31,466 bases of DNA from a virus. Both the position numbers and the translations under genes were made by a program. Of the stretch, positions 323 through 28,752 are shown piece by piece. Below the pieces are notes generated by a model. It was not told where the DNA came from, did not search any database, and worked only from the letters and a program-made list of their open reading frames with translations. Each line of letters opens with the position of its first letter. The stretch's first letter is position 1. The DNA lies in IMG/VR virus record IMGVR_UViG_3300030106_002327, positions 1 through 31,466 of that record. One strand, written 5' to 3'.

Positions 323-566
323 ATTGTATTCTGCTTTATCTCTTGTTGATTATTCGAAGAAAGAAAACAGAAGAGATAGATGGAAACAAAAAATATTTAG
401 ATATCTAATCTACAAAAGATATGATGTAGAAGATGCTCTAAATATACTAACTGCATTTAATGAAGGACATCCAGATGCAAAGAAATTTATTAACGCTGCT
501 GATAAACAAAGATTAGCAGAAGAAAAGAAATTCGGGAGAGGTTTTTATGAAAAGAAAAGACGATAA
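291..566 (+). CDS. Small basic hypothetical protein upstream of the exonuclease
   Basis: The protein is 91 residues, strongly basic (RNRLYSALS, KKENRRDRWKQK, C-terminal FYEKKRR) and predicted largely helical. AAGGAGAG lies a few bases before the ATG at 291. It overlaps the preceding gene by 32 bases and the exonuclease start by 20 bases. The charge pattern would fit a nucleic-acid-binding accessory factor, but I recognise no family. Confidence 0.65.
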   Translation: MTKLGEAIRNRLYSALSLVDYSKKENRRDRWKQKIFRYLIYKRYDVEDALNILTAFNEGHPDAKKFINAADKQRLAEEKKFGRGFYEKKRR

Positions 567-1104
567 GTATCTTACACCACTCAAAACTATTGGTGGTACA
601 GATGCCAATATGATTGCTCAAGGCAAACTATATGAAGTATGGATTAATAAATTACATCCAGAAAAACAACCAGATTTATCTGGGATATTCCAAGTTAATC
701 TTGGTGTTGAAACAGAACCATTTAATAGAGAATGGTTTATGGAACAAACTGAAAAGAAAGTAGTTATGCCTGAGAAAACATTCTATAGAAAAGGTATACC
801 ATTCGGTCATTGTAGACCAGATGGTATTATTAAGAATGATAATAAGTATGGTGATTCTATTTTAGAATGTAAACATACTAATGCATTTAATGATATCAAG
901 AAAGTTACTCAAAGATATTATTATCAGATCCAATGGAACATGTGGATTACTAAATCTGCTCTTTGTTACATGAGTGTTATCTTTGGAAACAAATGGGATT
1001 ACTGGGAAGTAGAACCAGATGTAGATAAAACCACAGATTTAGTGTTAAAAGTAGAAGATTTCTGGGAAAAGTACATAAAGACAGGTATCGAACCACCCAG
1101 ATAA
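547..1104 (+). CDS. YqaJ / lambda-exonuclease-family recombination nuclease
   Basis: This is a 185-residue PD-(D/E)XK nuclease of the YqaJ/lambda exonuclease type, which resects DNA ends to make 3' single strands for phage recombination. Visible motifs in family order are IGGTDA (residues 15-20), the GVETEPF helix with Glu57, the metal-binding Asp92 in RPDGII, the ExK pair Glu107/Lys109 in ILECKH, and the QIQ motif (127-129) that ends the core. All expected catalytic residues are present and the length is normal for compact phage members. A putative annealing protein gene follows after a terminator-like structure, forming the usual exonuclease/annealing pair. GGGAGAGG precedes the ATG. Confidence 0.87.
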   Translation: MKRKDDKYLTPLKTIGGTDANMIAQGKLYEVWINKLHPEKQPDLSGIFQVNLGVETEPFNREWFMEQTEKKVVMPEKTFYRKGIPFGHCRPDGIIKNDNKYGDSILECKHTNAFNDIKKVTQRYYYQIQWNMWITKSALCYMSVIFGNKWDYWEVEPDVDKTTDLVLKVEDFWEKYIKTGIEPPR

Positions 1105-1198: not shown

Positions 1199-1654
1199 AT
1201 GCCTAAAATACCAAATGATACTATAATTACAGCAGTCAGGAAACATATGCCTAATCTAACTGATGCTGATAAGAAAGATATGTTCTGGGATTGTCATGGT
1301 CAATGGATAATCAAGAACAAATGGATGCAAAGATTGGCTGCTTTAGCAGGTGTAGAAGTAATAGATATTACTTGTCTACATTCTGAATCAAATTCTGCTG
1401 CACTCGTTATGCAAATCAAGACTGCAACAGGAGGAACTATTATGACAACTGGTGAAGCATCACCAGGTAATTCTAAGAATGCTTACTTCCATGCTATGGC
1501 TGAGAAGAGAGCATTTGATAGAGCAGCACTCAAAGCTTTAAATCTTCAGGGCTTTGTATATACTGAAGAGGATGCTGAACAGATTAAGGAAGGTCGCAGA
1601 AAAACATCTAAAGAAGATGTTAAAAAAGGTGTTGACATTCCTTATCCTAAATAG
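1199..1654 (+). CDS. Putative single-strand annealing protein (Rad52-like type)
   Basis: The protein is 151 residues. Its central segment has alternating beta-strand character (LAGVEVIDITCLHSES, AALVMQIKTATGG), then GEASPGN (85-91) and the helix AMAEKRAFDRAALKALNLQG (99-118), ending GFVYTEEDAE. The AEKRAxDRxxLKxLxLxGxVYTEEDA pattern recalls short phage recombination proteins that bind or anneal single-stranded DNA. A neighbouring YqaJ-type exonuclease supports this role. AAAGGAGAG precedes the ATG. Family membership is from memory of the pattern and context; a different ssDNA-binding function is possible. Confidence 0.55.
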   Translation: MPKIPNDTIITAVRKHMPNLTDADKKDMFWDCHGQWIIKNKWMQRLAALAGVEVIDITCLHSESNSAALVMQIKTATGGTIMTTGEASPGNSKNAYFHAMAEKRAFDRAALKALNLQGFVYTEEDAEQIKEGRRKTSKEDVKKGVDIPYPK

Positions 1655-1668
1655 AAAATAATAACAAT

Positions 1669-1675
1669 AGGAGGT
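1669..1675 (+). promoter_or_regulatory. Strong ribosome binding site of the PqqA-like gene
   Basis: AGGAGGT lies six bases before the ATG at 1682. It is a full anti-Shine-Dalgarno match at near-ideal spacing, among the best on the + strand of this window, and implies high translation of the short PqqA-like gene. Confidence 0.75.
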
Positions 1676-1681
1676 ACACAT

Positions 1682-1864
1682 ATGTGGACAGAACCTGAAA
1701 TAACTGAAGTATCAGTCGGACTTGAAATCAACTCTTATGCTTGTGCATTAATGGGTGATGATGAAGACGCTGATGATTCAGATGATTCAGCAGATGTATC
1801 AGAAGATGATTCTGATGATGACGCTGATGATGATGATTCTGATGACGAATTAGGATCTGATTAA
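1682..1864 (+). CDS. pqqA: PqqA-like PQQ precursor peptide with an acidic C-terminal tail
   Basis: The 60-residue product begins MWTEPEITEVSVGLEINSYA. This matches the PqqA pattern: W2, P5, E9, G13 and the Glu15-x3-Tyr19 pair (EINSY), followed by the ACA often seen in alphaproteobacterial members. In PQQ biosynthesis PqqE (radical SAM), with chaperone PqqD, cross-links that Glu to that Tyr; the two residues become the cofactor after proteolysis and oxidation. Normal PqqA is about 22-40 residues. This one adds a 35-residue tail (26-60) with 20 Asp, 3 Glu and 6 Ser. No pqqB-F gene is in the window, so processing would rely on host enzymes. PqqA is a stoichiometric substrate, so a highly translated phage copy could raise PQQ output. 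A decoy for PqqD/PqqE or a different RiPP is an alternative. Confidence 0.8.
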   Translation: MWTEPEITEVSVGLEINSYACALMGDDEDADDSDDSADVSEDDSDDDADDDDSDDELGSD

Positions 1865-1882: not shown

Positions 1883-1884
1883 GA

Positions 1885-1933
1885 GAAGAGTGCTGGTATT
1901 TATCCCTTTCTCTCTCTAACACCAGTGCTCTTC
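1885..1933 (+). terminator. Long hairpin between the PqqA-like and TSCPD genes
   Basis: GAAGAGTGCTGGT (1885-1897) pairs with ACCAGTGCTCTTC (1921-1933) over 13 positions, with two G/U wobbles in the RNA. The 23-base loop is pyrimidine-rich. It is followed by TTTATTATTA, an imperfect U tract that overlaps the approach to the next start codon. It may act as a partial terminator or may control translation of the next gene, which has no Shine-Dalgarno sequence of its own. Confidence 0.45.
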
Positions 1934-1942
1934 TTTATTATT

Positions 1943-2946: not shown

Positions 2947-3211
2947 CTCCATTCTTTTTAGTTCCTGCTGCTAAAGCTGCATATCCTACAATATCTATAA
3001 AGTTATCATCAAGATCTTTGCCCTGTTTTTGTCGCATCATTTTTACAAGTGCCATACAAATAGGTATATCTTGAGCTGTTACATTGAAACCGAAATAGGC
3101 AGTCCACATAGTGGCTACACTTCTAAACATAGAATTATAATCCCCATATGCATCTGCTCTTTCTTTAGTGATTAATCTTTTAGCTTCGTCTATTATTTCT
3201 TCTGGTGTCAT
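2843..3211 (-). CDS. DUF6378-like phage protein
   Basis: This 122-residue helical protein carries the pattern ERADAYGDYNSMFRSVATMW (residues 17-36), AQDIPICMALVKMMRQK and DDNFIDIVGYAALAAG. I recognise this as the DUF6378 type, common in phages. The family resembles small helical nucleotide-handling folds such as MazG-like proteins, but its activity is not established. It is the last gene of the leftward late unit and overlaps the phosphoesterase by 32 bases. Its C-terminal 35 codons lie opposite the DnaA-like gene. Confidence 0.72.
   Translation of the reverse strand: MTPEEIIDEAKRLITKERADAYGDYNSMFRSVATMWTAYFGFNVTAQDIPICMALVKMMRQKQGKDLDDNFIDIVGYAALAAGTKKNGVTDLVAEKVARQKVHDDKDLDFANEASSKPSDVE
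2859..2873. other. Perfect hairpin inside the convergent overlap
   Basis: GGCTTC-GAT-GAAGCC is a perfect six-base-pair stem with a three-base loop, lying in DNA coding on both strands near where the two operons meet. No T run follows on either strand, so it is not a standard terminator. It could still slow converging polymerases, or be a chance result of codon use. Confidence 0.4.
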
Positions 3212-3956
3212 ACATATCCTCTAATGTTTTCATAGTTATAAAACTAACATCCTGGATATGATTGTCAAATATATTTATTTCTGTAATACCCCATGCCCAA
3301 CCAGTAGTACATATCTTACAATAATTTTCTACATGACCATAAGGCAAAGAACAACCAACATTTAAAACTCTAGTATAATTTGATTCTCCAATCTTAGGAC
3401 ATCTAATATCATTATACTTATGTGAGTGTCCAAAGACTACATCAAATTGAGAGTGCTGCCCAATATTTCTTTCAGCATTAACTCCACCAAATTCTTTACC
3501 CATTACATTAAAAGGAACATGAACAAATCCTACATTATCTATCATATGAAATACACCATATGTAGTATAATTCCAACCAAATGAAGTAAAAGTATCTCCT
3601 AATTGTTTTTGCATCATAGAATATATTTCAGGATTTTGTTGTTCCCATTTATATAATCTATGTTCATGATTACCATAAGTACAATGTTTTAAACCTTTAT
3701 ATTTTTTCATAGAATTATCCAGTACTGAAAGACATTCTTTAAAAGAATCCATATCTTCTGTAAAAGTTCCTTTATTTCTACCAGCCATTGTTTCATTTCC
3801 AATATGCCAACATAAAGAATCAAAGGTACAAAAATCTCCTATCTGAACTACATGATCTGGATCTTGTTCTTCAATATGTTTACCTATCCATTTCATTCTA
3901 TCCTTAGGAATAGCTGGTGCATCATGTACATCTGCAATAATAATTACTCTTGTCAT
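3180..3956 (-). CDS. Calcineurin-like metallophosphoesterase
   Basis: The 258-residue protein has the metallophosphoesterase core in order: DVHD (residues 9-12), GDF (40-42), GNHEHR (95-100), His146 in FVHVP, and GHSHK (176-180). These supply the dinuclear metal ligands. Such phage enzymes hydrolyse phosphomonoesters or phosphodiesters; the substrate cannot be read from sequence. It overlaps the upstream small gene by four bases (ATGA) and the downstream DUF6378-like gene by 32, placing it in the late leftward operon after the lysis genes. All metal-ligand motifs are intact. Confidence 0.87.
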   Translation of the reverse strand: MTRVIIIADVHDAPAIPKDRMKWIGKHIEEQDPDHVVQIGDFCTFDSLCWHIGNETMAGRNKGTFTEDMDSFKECLSVLDNSMKKYKGLKHCTYGNHEHRLYKWEQQNPEIYSMMQKQLGDTFTSFGWNYTTYGVFHMIDNVGFVHVPFNVMGKEFGGVNAERNIGQHSQFDVVFGHSHKYNDIRCPKIGESNYTRVLNVGCSLPYGHVENYCKICTTGWAWGITEINIFDNHIQDVSFITMKTLEDMYDTRRNNRRS

Positions 3957-4209: not shown

Positions 4210-4237
4210 AACTGGGGGGAGTAAAATCCTCCCAGTT
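4210..4237. terminator. Hairpin after the holin gene
   Basis: AACTGGGGGGA (4210-4220) and TCCTCCCAGTT (4227-4237) form an 11-base-pair stem, with one G/U or A/C position depending on strand, and a six-base loop. It overlaps the holin stop codon. On the - strand only a short T stretch follows; on the + strand TTATTTT follows. It is probably a partial or bidirectional terminator within the leftward unit, separating holin and phosphoesterase transcripts. Confidence 0.5.
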
Positions 4238-4565
4238 ATTTTAAAAATTTCTTTGCTATATTAATCCCAAAACTACCAGCAATTATCACAAGTAATGCCC
4301 AAGAAAACCATTCAGGTACATCAGTATTTAATATTACCCATCCATTAATTAAGTATGGCTGGACTGGTGGAAAAAAATGTAGACAAAAAATTCCTGTAAA
4401 TAATAAACAAAGATACTCATCCTTCCAGGAAGTTTCACTAGCTCTTTGAGCAGAAGCTGCCCAATCTAATTCTGCTTTTCTTTCAACCTTCTTTCTTTCA
4501 CCATAATGTTTGATGCCTTCTACTACAGAAGATCCAACAGTTTTAATTAATAAAGACCAAATCAT
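4236..4565 (-). CDS. Holin of the GTA 3TM type
   Basis: The 109-residue protein contains ETSWKDEYLCLLFTGIFCLHF (44-64), a membrane segment, then PPVQPYLINGW and a second membrane segment after VPEWFSWALLVIIAGSFGINIAKK (84-106). The SWKDE-x-hydrophobic and PEWF...FGI elements match the GTA_holin_3TM family of gene-transfer-agent and alphaproteobacterial phage holins. It would form inner-membrane lesions at lysis. It overlaps the upstream coiled-coil/TM gene by four bases. The segment near 5-15 may be the third, weaker membrane helix. Confidence 0.72.
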   Translation of the reverse strand: MIWSLLIKTVGSSVVEGIKHYGERKKVERKAELDWAASAQRASETSWKDEYLCLLFTGIFCLHFFPPVQPYLINGWVILNTDVPEWFSWALLVIIAGSFGINIAKKFLK

Positions 4566-24725: not shown

Positions 24726-25005
24726 CTGTACCTCCTTGGTTATGTGATGTTATCCTTCTTAATAATATTGCGACTATAAAACGCATACCTTCTAAATGAC
24801 GAAGGTAGTCATTAGTTACATTTGGACCACTTACTGCTTCTACAGTTATTGATCGTAAATAGTTAATAACTTCTTTTCCATTAGCACCAGTAAATACAGA
24901 TGCAACTAATTCGTTTAATTTCTTTTCTTCTTCTGGAGATCTTTGAAATCCATCTATGCTTACACCATGAGGTGTTTTATCTTTTTTTATATCTTCCCAG
25001 GTCAT
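24679..25005 (-). CDS. Bbp19-family phage protein
   Basis: The 108-residue protein holds FTGANGKEVINYLRS (37-52), then EAVSGPNVTNDYLRHLEGMRFIVAILLRRI (about 55-85). The P-N-x-T-x-x-YLRHLEGMRxIV core is the signature of Bbp19-type proteins, found next to portal genes in phages of alpha- and betaproteobacteria. Function is unknown; the portal overlap (ATGA, four bases) suggests a head-assembly role. Confidence 0.72.
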   Translation of the reverse strand: MTWEDIKKDKTPHGVSIDGFQRSPEEEKKLNELVASVFTGANGKEVINYLRSITVEAVSGPNVTNDYLRHLEGMRFIVAILLRRITSHNQGGTDARTRIVKPNKRIIK

Positions 25006-26567
25006 TCTTGTGGTTGTTGTTGTTGTGCCATTTGTTGCATTTGAGCTATTATTTGTTGCTGTTCTTCAGGAGATCTAATTATATTTCCTGGCAATCCTAG
25101 CTTTCTTGCTATATATCCTGCAACTATATCTGTTTTAACAAACATATTTAAACTTTCTGGTCCAAATCTTGCTCCTATTATATCTAAGAATCTATCTATA
25201 ATTGACACATCTTGATTATTTTGTGCTTGTGCCAATGGAGAAACAGGTTTAATTTTAATTTCTCTATTACCTATTGTAGGTAATTGTATTCTTCCTTGTT
25301 TCTTTAGAAGATAGATAACCCTTCTTAAAATAGGATTAACAAATTCTGCTTGTAGTCTACCAAATGCAGAACCTATTTGTCTACTTAAATCTGCCATTCT
25401 TTCTGTAATTTCTGTAGCAGTTGCTGGAGTTTTATTTGGATCTCCTAATTGTTCATTATATAATGCTTTTTTAATATTTAATCTCATATCTTGAAGTATT
25501 AATTGAGCTACATCAAAATTTCCTGGTGGAGCTATTGGAGTTAATCCAGTAGATCCTGGAGATCTTGGAATAATAGAACCTGGTACTAATTGGATTGTAT
25601 CTGGATTTATAACACCATCATCATCTACTTGATACATTCCAGCAATAGACATCTGAGCATTTTCTAATATTAATTCAACAGTTAGGTTACAAGTTTTGAT
25701 TGCAGGTAAAGCATTTAATAACGGACCTCTTCCATAAACTTCTCCTGCTGCTTTAGACCATCTAAATACAATCCAAGGATTAGCACCATCCCCCTTTAAA
25801 CTTTGTTCAAAAATTAAAGCTTTATGTTCTTTTAAAATAACACAATGCTTCCATATATATTCATTTGGTTTTAACCAATCTCTTTTTACAACTTCTAATA
25901 TTTCACATTTTTTTACTGGATTTTTTAAAAGATCCATTTTTTGTAAAACTGTATCTGGTATAATAGCTTTAGGATAAGCATTTTGTATATCTTCTGCTTT
26001 TATCCATCTTGTTCTAAATACAGCATCTACATCATCGTTTGGTCCTGTTTCTAAAACTAAATGTGCTAAAGGAACTGCTCTAAATCTTATAGGATTATTT
26101 GCATCACCTTCTTCTACTAATAATGCTCCTGTACCAACAGCAAGATCCATGAAGGATTCATGGACTTCCTGATTAAAATTAGAGTTTTGTAAAATCTCAA
26201 ATATATAATCGGTTATTTGATCTAATCCTTGATCTACTCTTAATCTATCAGCAGGTGGGATTTCAGTTCCACTTCTTAAATCTGCCCATCTGGCAAAAGT
26301 TGGAACCATTCCTGCTTGTAATCTAGATGCAAATTCTTGAACTCCTACAACTGCTGTTTCATCAAATATTTTATCATTCTTTTTTTTTGCTACTTGTTCT
26401 TCATAGAAAGATTCTCTTTGTGGTAATGCATATTCATAACATTCTTCAAAATGTCCTGACCACATTTCTTTTCTTGCTTTAGCTGCTTTAAATCTTTTAA
26501 GTATATCGCCCACATAGTCATTTGATATTCCTATATTTTCGTCTATACCTGTACTTTGTAATGCCAT
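25002..26567 (-). CDS. Portal / head-to-tail connector protein (T7 gp8-like)
   Basis: The 521-residue protein (T7 gp8 is 536) has the podovirus connector pattern: LKRFKAAKARKEMWSGHFEE, YALPQRESF, FDETAVVGVQEFASRLQAG (about 70-88), VPTFARWADLRSG, and YNEQLGDPNKTPATATEITERM (about 370-390). It forms the dodecameric ring at the packaging vertex. A Gln-rich C-terminus (EEQQQIIAQMQQMAQQQQPQE) overlaps the Bbp19-like start. Confidence 0.88.
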   Translation of the reverse strand: MALQSTGIDENIGISNDYVGDILKRFKAAKARKEMWSGHFEECYEYALPQRESFYEEQVAKKKNDKIFDETAVVGVQEFASRLQAGMVPTFARWADLRSGTEIPPADRLRVDQGLDQITDYIFEILQNSNFNQEVHESFMDLAVGTGALLVEEGDANNPIRFRAVPLAHLVLETGPNDDVDAVFRTRWIKAEDIQNAYPKAIIPDTVLQKMDLLKNPVKKCEILEVVKRDWLKPNEYIWKHCVILKEHKALIFEQSLKGDGANPWIVFRWSKAAGEVYGRGPLLNALPAIKTCNLTVELILENAQMSIAGMYQVDDDGVINPDTIQLVPGSIIPRSPGSTGLTPIAPPGNFDVAQLILQDMRLNIKKALYNEQLGDPNKTPATATEITERMADLSRQIGSAFGRLQAEFVNPILRRVIYLLKKQGRIQLPTIGNREIKIKPVSPLAQAQNNQDVSIIDRFLDIIGARFGPESLNMFVKTDIVAGYIARKLGLPGNIIRSPEEQQQIIAQMQQMAQQQQPQE

Positions 26568-26833: not shown

Positions 26834-27241
26834 TTATAAAAAATATATATTATCTTTAGATATTTTCTTTTTCAACGCACAAAATAATTGATAAGGAGTA
26901 ATAACAAACATATTTTTCATTCCTATCATATATTTAATTGCTGATACACAATACATTGGAACCCAATTAAATAATCTTTTATTTTTATTTTCACTTTCAA
27001 TTACTATTGCTGTTGCTTTATGTTTTTTTAATATTTGATGATGAGTATATAACATTTGTTTAGTATTTAAAATATTAATAAACACACCATTTAATGCATA
27101 ATCAAAAGCAATCCATTTATTTGTTAAGGGATCATACCCGTATATAAAACAATGTCTAAATCCTGGTTTTGTAAAGAAGTCAAACCAATATTGTGATTTT
27201 CTATCTATAAAATAGATTACCCACCTCGAAATAGTTTCCAT
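26834..27241 (-). CDS. Permuted papain-like (NlpC/YiiX-type) protein
   Basis: The 135-residue protein keeps a conserved-looking His (GFRHCFIYGYD, His30), a strand/turn (NKWIAFDYA) and a later Cys at the head of a helix (PMYCVSAIKYMIGM, Cys98), then TPYQLFCAL. His before Cys is the order in circularly permuted papain-fold amidases and peptidases such as YiiX/LRAT-type enzymes. Similar proteins lie near TerL in marine phages. It may cleave an amide bond in the envelope or modify a host lipid or peptide, but the catalytic reading is inference. The start overlaps the TerL end by 25 bases. Confidence 0.5.
   Translation of the reverse strand: METISRWVIYFIDRKSQYWFDFFTKPGFRHCFIYGYDPLTNKWIAFDYALNGVFINILNTKQMLYTHHQILKKHKATAIVIESENKNKRLFNWVPMYCVSAIKYMIGMKNMFVITPYQLFCALKKKISKDNIYFL
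26873..26881 (-). promoter_or_regulatory. Candidate late promoter P2 (portal block)
   Basis: The - strand reads TTTTGTGCGTTGAAAAAG with core TGTGCGTTG. It is placed within the last codons of the papain-like gene and 60 bases ahead of the small pre-portal gene. The other four copies are intergenic, so this is the only one inside a coding end. Confidence 0.58.
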
Positions 27242-28752
27242 TTATTTTTATTTTGTTCCTTTGGTTTTCTAGTAAAAACATCCCAGTTTCTTTTAACTAC
27301 AAAATTTTGCATTGGTTTTTGTTGTTTTAATAACGACTTGCCTTCTCCTGCTCCTAAGAACATATACTGAAGAGCATCATGTATATGAGAATATTTATTT
27401 TTATCTGGCTTCTCATCATACTTATCTCCAATAACATTAATTCTTCTATAACAATATCCACCATCAAAACCTCTTAATAAGATTTTGCATGACGGATCTA
27501 TTAATACTCCTGATTTTCCATCTATCATTCTGTTTAATACAGAATTAACTGCTTCTGTTCTTGTAACAACATCATTAGTAGGAGCTGGTCTTGCTTGTAA
27601 TCCAGCAGCCCTCATAATCTGGAATGGAGTTGTTTCATCTGTTTGAGCTCTAAAATCTCCAGCAGGATCTCCAATAATTGATATTTTTTGAGATTCCTGT
27701 GGAAACAGAGCTGCTATCTCTCCTTTTAATAATTCTGAAAATTTTTTTACCCCCATATCCATACACACTAACTCTTTAACAAGAAGCCATTTGTTTCTTG
27801 CAGTTCGCTGTCCAAAGATAGCAGCAGGTGTCAAACCAAAATCTATTCCAATAAACACTTCCAGATCCTTACTAATAGGGATTGGTTCTTTTGCTTTATG
27901 AACAGTAGAATTAAAGTTAGGATAGACTAACTTTCCTTCTTCTATTGTTCCTAGTTTATTTAAAACATAGACATCAATCCAGGATTTAGTCTTACCTTTT
28001 ATAATATTATCATAATAATTTGGTGTTAGATGTTTTGAATTTTCTGCTTTGTTATTTGGTTTGTATTCTAATAGTTGTCCTTGTTTATTTTTTTTCTCTA
28101 ACATTCCTGGAGGTTGAGTATAGAAAGACCAGTTGTCAGGTTTCTGCAGCATAAGAGCTTCTTCTGGTGCGATGTAATCTGGTACTGCACTATCTCCTGC
28201 CATAACTGCCCACCAATGATCTTCCTCTGGTGCATTAGTATCGCATATTACCCCATACCAACTAGGACCACCATCACGAATAGACGGAAATCTTCCTACT
28301 CTCATAGTACAGGCATCTACTATAGACTTTGGAATTTCTCTTGCTTCATTAATCCATACTCCTGTTAGTTCTAAAGATAAAAGTTTTTTAACATCTTCAG
28401 GTCTATCTAGTGCCAGGAATATAACTTCTATATCTAATCCCTTCTTTTGTATTCTATGAGTAAAAGGAACTGACCAATAAAAATATCCCCATTCTGTTTC
28501 TGGAATCCAGTCTATCCAGGTTTTAATTGTTGTTGTTTTTAATTGAGGATTTGTATTTCTAATAACTGCCCATCTTGTTTTTCTTACTCCTTCTTTATTT
28601 GGTTTTTGCATTAATGCTCTTCTCATTATTTCAATACAACATGCAACAGATTTACCAGATCCAACTGGTCCTCTGATTCCTCTAAAGAAGGAATCATCTT
28701 TCATAAAATTTTTTAATACTTCTCCCCCTGGTTTATAACTTAAACTTGGCAT
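27217..28752 (-). CDS. Large terminase subunit (TerL)
   Basis: The 511-residue packaging motor has a Walker A motif GPVGSGKS (28-35), a Walker B-like VWINEARE (132-139) with the acidic pair, and an RNase H-like nuclease domain with Asp304 (GIDFGLTPA), Asp362 (IIGDPAGD) and Asp459 (HIHDALQYM). T7 gp19 is 586 residues. All catalytic motifs are present. The start overlaps the preceding small gene as TAATG; the end overlaps the papain-like gene. Confidence 0.92.
   Translation of the reverse strand: MPSLSYKPGGEVLKNFMKDDSFFRGIRGPVGSGKSVACCIEIMRRALMQKPNKEGVRKTRWAVIRNTNPQLKTTTIKTWIDWIPETEWGYFYWSVPFTHRIQKKGLDIEVIFLALDRPEDVKKLLSLELTGVWINEAREIPKSIVDACTMRVGRFPSIRDGGPSWYGVICDTNAPEEDHWWAVMAGDSAVPDYIAPEEALMLQKPDNWSFYTQPPGMLEKKNKQGQLLEYKPNNKAENSKHLTPNYYDNIIKGKTKSWIDVYVLNKLGTIEEGKLVYPNFNSTVHKAKEPIPISKDLEVFIGIDFGLTPAAIFGQRTARNKWLLVKELVCMDMGVKKFSELLKGEIAALFPQESQKISIIGDPAGDFRAQTDETTPFQIMRAAGLQARPAPTNDVVTRTEAVNSVLNRMIDGKSGVLIDPSCKILLRGFDGGYCYRRINVIGDKYDEKPDKNKYSHIHDALQYMFLGAGEGKSLLKQQKPMQNFVVKRNWDVFTRKPKEQNKNKWKLFRGG

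Follow-up and report, generated by a model that had tools for sequence, protein, structure and literature searches.

A phage-encoded PqqA peptide with an acidic tail and the supply of PQQ precursor as an apparently recurring phage strategy

PqqA is a small peptide that bacteria turn into the redox cofactor PQQ, one peptide being spent per PQQ made, and it is usually about 22–39 residues long, ending soon after the conserved Tyr. In the described pathway the PqqA leader is held by PqqD while the C-terminal part lies at PqqE, which cross-links the Glu and the Tyr (PMC10906245). In Gluconobacter, work cited in PMC7936290 found the PQQ level to change when single PQQ genes, pqqA among them, were overexpressed. 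A pqqA gene is also known from a phage, the Lake Baikal methylophage VP_266, where it lies beside a phage methanol dehydrogenase (PMC7678222), and viral pqqA is further described in a reservoir study (PMC13188868). Here, we analyze a pqqA gene in a marine viral record of 31,466 nucleotides (the window), for which an original prediction, made from the letters alone, had left open whether the gene had been reported before; for phage pqqA as such it has (PMC7678222). Like VP_266, the window has a phage-encoded PqqA, probably in a phage of PQQ-using bacteria, but VP_266 is another phage from another habitat, and no acidic tail is mentioned for it. In the literature searched there was no report of an acidic-tailed PqqA, and PQQ synthesis genes go unmentioned in a global-ocean survey of phage metabolic genes and in the main texts of the Melnitz, Venkman and MEP401/402 isolate papers. 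The acidic tail and the breadth of pqqA among isolates appear to be new.

The window peptide carries the PqqA hallmarks that had been proposed for its first 22 residues. NCBIfam TIGR02107 matches residues 2–22 with 31.3 bits (cut-off 20) and Pfam PF08042 residues 1–19 with 28.2 bits (cut-off 21.1), both above the curated cut-offs, and W2, P5, E9, G13, E15 and Y19 are all present, with the Glu-x3-Tyr pair in the conserved frame. In a six-frame search of the whole record the PqqA profile finds this gene as its single match (E 5.5e-9). Being short and ending soon after the Tyr is usual for PqqA, though no profile criterion, and here the window peptide departs from its family with 60 residues. Its tail, probably disordered and described at the outset as two-thirds acidic, indeed has Asp or Glu at 23 of 35 positions and holds no Lys or Arg. 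The AGGAGGT site is likewise confirmed (Table 1), and AATAGGAGG at this ribosome-binding site is kept in two related phages, L163 and L173. Situated among phage genes and having cellular homologues, pqqA is a candidate auxiliary metabolic gene.

Table 1. Features of the window around pqqA, with marker genes of the phage
Feature	Position	Strand	Basis or remark
YqaJ/RecE-like exonuclease	547..1104	+	PF09588, 53 bits; phrog_434; upstream neighbour of pqqA
151-residue gene adjoining pqqA	1199..1654	+	38% identical to Hodr gene at the same place; no Pfam match
Ribosome-binding site AGGAGGT	1669..1675	+	6 bases 5' of the pqqA ATG
pqqA ORF	1682..1864	+	ATG start, 60 aa; MWTEPEITEVSVGLEINSYACALMGDDEDADDSDDSADVSEDDSDDDADDDDSDDELGSD
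PqqA core, residues 1–25	1682..1756	+	MWTEPEITEVSVGLEINSYACALMG; profile matches; Glu15/Tyr19 the expected cross-link pair
Acidic tail, residues 26–60	1757..1861	+	ORF translation; 35 aa with 20 Asp and 3 Glu
Stop codon TAA	1862..1864	+	End of the pqqA ORF
Strong hairpin, terminator-like	1883..1935	+	15-bp stem, 23-nt pyrimidine-rich loop CCCUUUCUCUCUCUAA; between pqqA and the next gene
Metallophosphoesterase	3180..3956	-	PF00149; phrog_221
Head-tail adaptor/portal	25002..26567	-	Podovirus marker; 60% identical to Hodr
Terminase large subunit	27217..28752	-	66% identical to Hodr

Genes of podovirus type for portal, terminase, capsid and tail tube mark the record as a podovirus-like phage. Among cultured phages its closest relative is Hodr (Pelagibacter phage EXVC031P, OQ414635), which was grown on Pelagibacter HTCC1062. 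The two share, besides terminase and portal, the exonuclease and its neighbour gene, but Hodr is without pqqA between that neighbour and the next, SSB-like gene. The neighbour, the 151-residue gene, probably encodes a single-strand annealing protein, as its position beside a YqaJ/RecE-like exonuclease indicates.

Among cellular sequences, the nearest matches of the window PqqA come from HIMB59/AEGEAN-169-type genomes, the clade name HIMB59 being taken from record titles such as 'HIMB59-MED-G10'. Their alpha-type PqqA has the identical core VGLEINSYACA and the same six key residues, but the copies read are only about 25 residues long, stopping shortly behind YACAEK without an acidic tail. Of the host copies, one is part of pqqABCDE, whereas profile searches of the window record gave no match to PqqD or PqqE; the claim that pqqBCDE is missing from this DNA thus holds for these two genes. 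In HIMB59-type genomes pqqA is nearly universal (31 of 32, with one to five copies), and PqqE scores above cut-off in 8 of 9 tested. In L110 the genes read in the order pqqA-pqqB-pqqC-pqqD-pqqE, and other copies stand alone. We infer a HIMB59/AEGEAN-169 host for the window phage, on a match of 22 residues that cannot prove the donor; that the nearest cultured relative, Hodr, infects Pelagibacter counts against it. The window terminase was not found in the 32 HIMB59-type genomes, a result uninformative on the host. Most HIMB59-type genomes hold several pqqA copies (e.g. L101, L121 and L127, with L110), the extra ones far from pqqBCDE, and multiple lone copies are surprising in such streamlined genomes.

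The tailed form recurs in close relatives of the window phage, as the original prediction had suggested checking. The window phage is represented by one more metagenomic contig, L001 (98.9% DNA identity over 6.6 kb), whose pqqA is identical. In the relatives L163 and L173, diverged tailed versions lie behind the 151-residue gene as in the window, with peptides of 59 and 54 residues and tails of 34 and 29, respectively. Because the identical gene occurs in L001 and diverged versions of the same architecture in two further phages, the tail is real and neither chance nor an assembly accident. The tails of L163 and L173 are 62% acidic and differ in length and order from the window tail; all three end in Ser-Asp, and E15 and Y19 are intact in all three alleles. 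Core positions 10–11 read KA in L163 and L173, a departure from the usual PqqA pattern, and L163 scores 18.9 bits against TIGR02107, just under the cut-off of 20. A DNA-pattern search for tailed alleles returned, besides L001, only L160/L163 and L173; L161 and L174 were rejected as unrelated proteins. A search with the 151-residue gene found only members of the window group, all with tailed pqqA; among loci related to this gene, three carry a beta-type PqqA.

Compared with L163 and L173, the pqqA core has a dN/dS of about 0.2 (dS about 1.0–1.1, dN 0.22), a rough rate over 25 codons that points to purifying selection on the peptide core. For the 151-residue gene, in contrast, dS relative to the window is 0.02 in L173 and 0.19 in L163, which suggests, again on 25 codons, that the pqqA allele has a history different from that of its flank and was probably exchanged by recombination.

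How widespread is PqqA among phages outside this lineage? An IMG/VR scan yielded 223 relatives; of the 80 analyzed among these, all but the tailed L001 (79) have a PqqA of the usual kind without a tail. The tail-less copies are 23–26 residues long, and all 79 alleles keep E15/Y19. By the genes they share, viral loci of the alpha type fall into five groups: A (52 viral contigs, with portal, holin-like and Cpn10 neighbours), B (16 viral contigs, with pqqA near iscA- and iscU-like genes), C (8 viral contigs), D, which is the window group, and E (3 viral contigs). Judged by gene sharing, alpha-type PqqA occurs in at least five unrelated phage lineages, four of them tail-less. A search of 32 viral records gave a single pqqA in each and in none the PQQ-enzyme repeat domain PF13360, so these phages bring no PQQ consumer, a point against a role in PQQ supply. 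In one phage lineage (L008, 4345–5525; L021, 4372–6488) pqqA lies between IscA-like and IscU-like iron-sulphur protein genes; since PqqE is an iron-sulphur enzyme, this lineage may supply both PQQ substrate and cluster assembly. The window itself encodes, at 4236–4565 (-), a 109-residue protein about 44% identical to the holin-like one whose gene immediately precedes pqqA in phages of lineage A; besides pqqA, no other window gene matches lineage A loci. Two pqqA contigs, L082 and L083, are assigned to Flavobacteriaceae and Maricaulis genomes but cluster with the viral contigs by shared genes and are probably misbinned phage DNA.

A second form, with the beta-type core EMRFGFEVTMY, is present in at least 120 viral stretches, 80 of which were read and encode peptides of 23–25 residues. 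A beta-type query matches one environmental phage genome and nine cultured-methylophage records from several phage groups: P19250A, Venkman, MEP301, MEP401, MEP402 and four Melnitz. These nine of nine are the records met and no census, since taxonomy lists further methylophages; MEP301, Venkman, Melnitz, P19250A and MEP401 were read in sequence, and MEP402 and three Melnitz siblings are search matches only. In the five regions read, PqqA has 23 residues (24 in Melnitz) and scores 34–41 bits against TIGR02107. The deposited annotation of these regions is without PqqA, showing either no feature or, in Melnitz, an ORF on the other strand (L378, 2961–3056) that hides the peptide. The beta-type alleles read also keep E15/Y19, and the pair, whose conservation the original prediction had made a check, is thereby found in every phage homologue whose peptide was read. 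In a blastn comparison of a 3.1-kb MEP401 stretch with methylophages other than its sibling MEP402, only the pqqA segment of less than 100 bp is common to P19250A, MEP301, Venkman and Melnitz. PqqD was not found in five complete methylophage genomes or in nine viral records including that of the window; the methylophages thus bring the substrate and not the enzymes, in agreement with the idea of a precursor supplied alone.

The cultured-methylophage PqqA therefore resembles that of the window in standing without PqqD, and differs in its beta-type core and the lack of a tail. In both MEP301 and the window, pqqA comes after a YqaJ exonuclease and one further gene, of the ERF family in MEP301 and for a probable annealing protein in the window, but in MEP301 pqqA lies on the opposite strand; a phosphodiesterase is also near it there, comparable to the window metallophosphoesterase. 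Between these neighbours there is no clear sequence homology except for a weak phosphoesterase match, so despite the same order of functions a common locus is not proven. A tblastn search of phage records with alpha-type PqqA, with plasmids as positive control, gave nothing or only weak Acinetobacter records. One match labelled 'Acinetobacter phage' (CAKLQF020000010; L382, H48) was rejected as a mislabelled bacterial pqqABCDE region, having pqqB, pqqC, pqqD and polyphosphate kinase.

What might a phage gain from its own PqqA? We favor, with a probability of roughly two in three, that the phage peptide feeds the PqqD and PqqE of the infected host as a working substrate and so raises PQQ, with a tail that serves solubility and longevity. 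Host PqqD would hold the N-terminal part and host PqqE would cross-link Glu15 and Tyr19, after which proteases would free the cross-linked amino acids and PqqB and PqqC would complete PQQ. The resulting increase might allow PQQ-dependent dehydrogenases to keep energy flowing during phage replication. As one peptide is spent per PQQ, a gene of 70–180 bases that encodes no enzyme can raise flux, and the use of PqqA by PqqD and PqqE, together with the PQQ response to single-gene overexpression, makes a consumable peptide a cheap boost. The proposal of extra precursor is strengthened by its recurrence in unrelated phages, of which the cultured ones are methylotroph phages. The lack of pqqA at the corresponding site of Hodr, a phage grown on Pelagibacter, also speaks in its favor. 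As a first guess, the tail keeps the peptide soluble or stable at high expression and would then be removed with the rest of it.

Located directly behind the cross-link site, the tail might also hinder PqqE rather than help it. The main rival on its role is accordingly a decoy or brake, in which host PqqD/PqqE would take up the peptide but process it poorly because of its tail, so that PQQ synthesis is lowered or the enzymes are tied up. The cross-link site binds in the PqqE barrel (PMC10906245), the tail is confined to the window lineage, and the KA at core positions 10–11 is off the usual pattern. A decoy need not, however, keep the reactive pair, whereas Glu15 and Tyr19 are kept in a core that seems to be under purifying selection; and as phage copies without a tail resemble ordinary PqqA in full, supply is the general trend. 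We therefore regard a decoy as unlikely. We also consider it quite unlikely that function resides in the tail itself, for instance through contact with a host or phage protein or through DNA mimicry, behind a core captured from a host and kept for recognition by PqqD or a protease. Phage proteins for host takeover often contain acidic segments, and the tails retain their composition and final Ser-Asp although they vary in sequence and length, but the conservation of the core and the number of phage homologues without a tail argue that selection acts on the core.

The many GAT codons and the length differences by whole codons would fit a tail that arose neutrally, by expansion of GAT repeats downstream of a working PqqA. 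Ser and Ala codons are interspersed, though, GAC and GAA changes occur, basic residues are nearly absent and the Ser-Asp end is conserved, all of which suggests selection for acidity, with three alleles too few for a firm test, and makes neutral expansion very unlikely. Binding of Ca2+ or a lanthanide for PQQ enzymes, a role also raised at the outset, fares worst and is highly improbable: such a density of Asp would bind cations at least weakly, but the canonical EF-hand loop pattern matches none of the three tails (shuffled tails match in 0 to 18%), and the window peptide has no export signal, whereas PQQ dehydrogenases acquire their metal in the periplasm.

Tail-less copies in many unrelated phages, including all cultured methylophages met, make the supply of PQQ raw material look like a recurring phage strategy. 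We hold it to be an even bet that precursor-only pqqA is a general, convergent strategy among phages of PQQ-making marine and freshwater hosts, with copies of 23–26 residues that are nearly always unannotated, and that the acidic-tailed form of one lineage alters the fate of the peptide. Phage metabolic genes usually encode enzymes, whereas this one provides raw material in the form of a ribosomal peptide, of which each cofactor uses up one, and the same is seen repeatedly in unrelated phages. Such a short gene escapes annotation even in cultured methylophages, and the prevalence of phage pqqA is therefore probably underestimated. Existing pairs (Venkman and Melnitz on H5P1, MEP401 on FZCC0133, MEP301 on FZCC2181) make the effect of phage on PQQ directly testable; a rise, if true, would mean more methanol and alcohol oxidation in abundant aquatic bacteria.

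Finally, the hairpin 3' of pqqA has z-scores of about -5.6, -3.5 and -4.5 in the three phages with tailed pqqA. Its loop is kept in all three while nearby intergenic DNA differs, a conservation beyond what an ordinary terminator loop needs.
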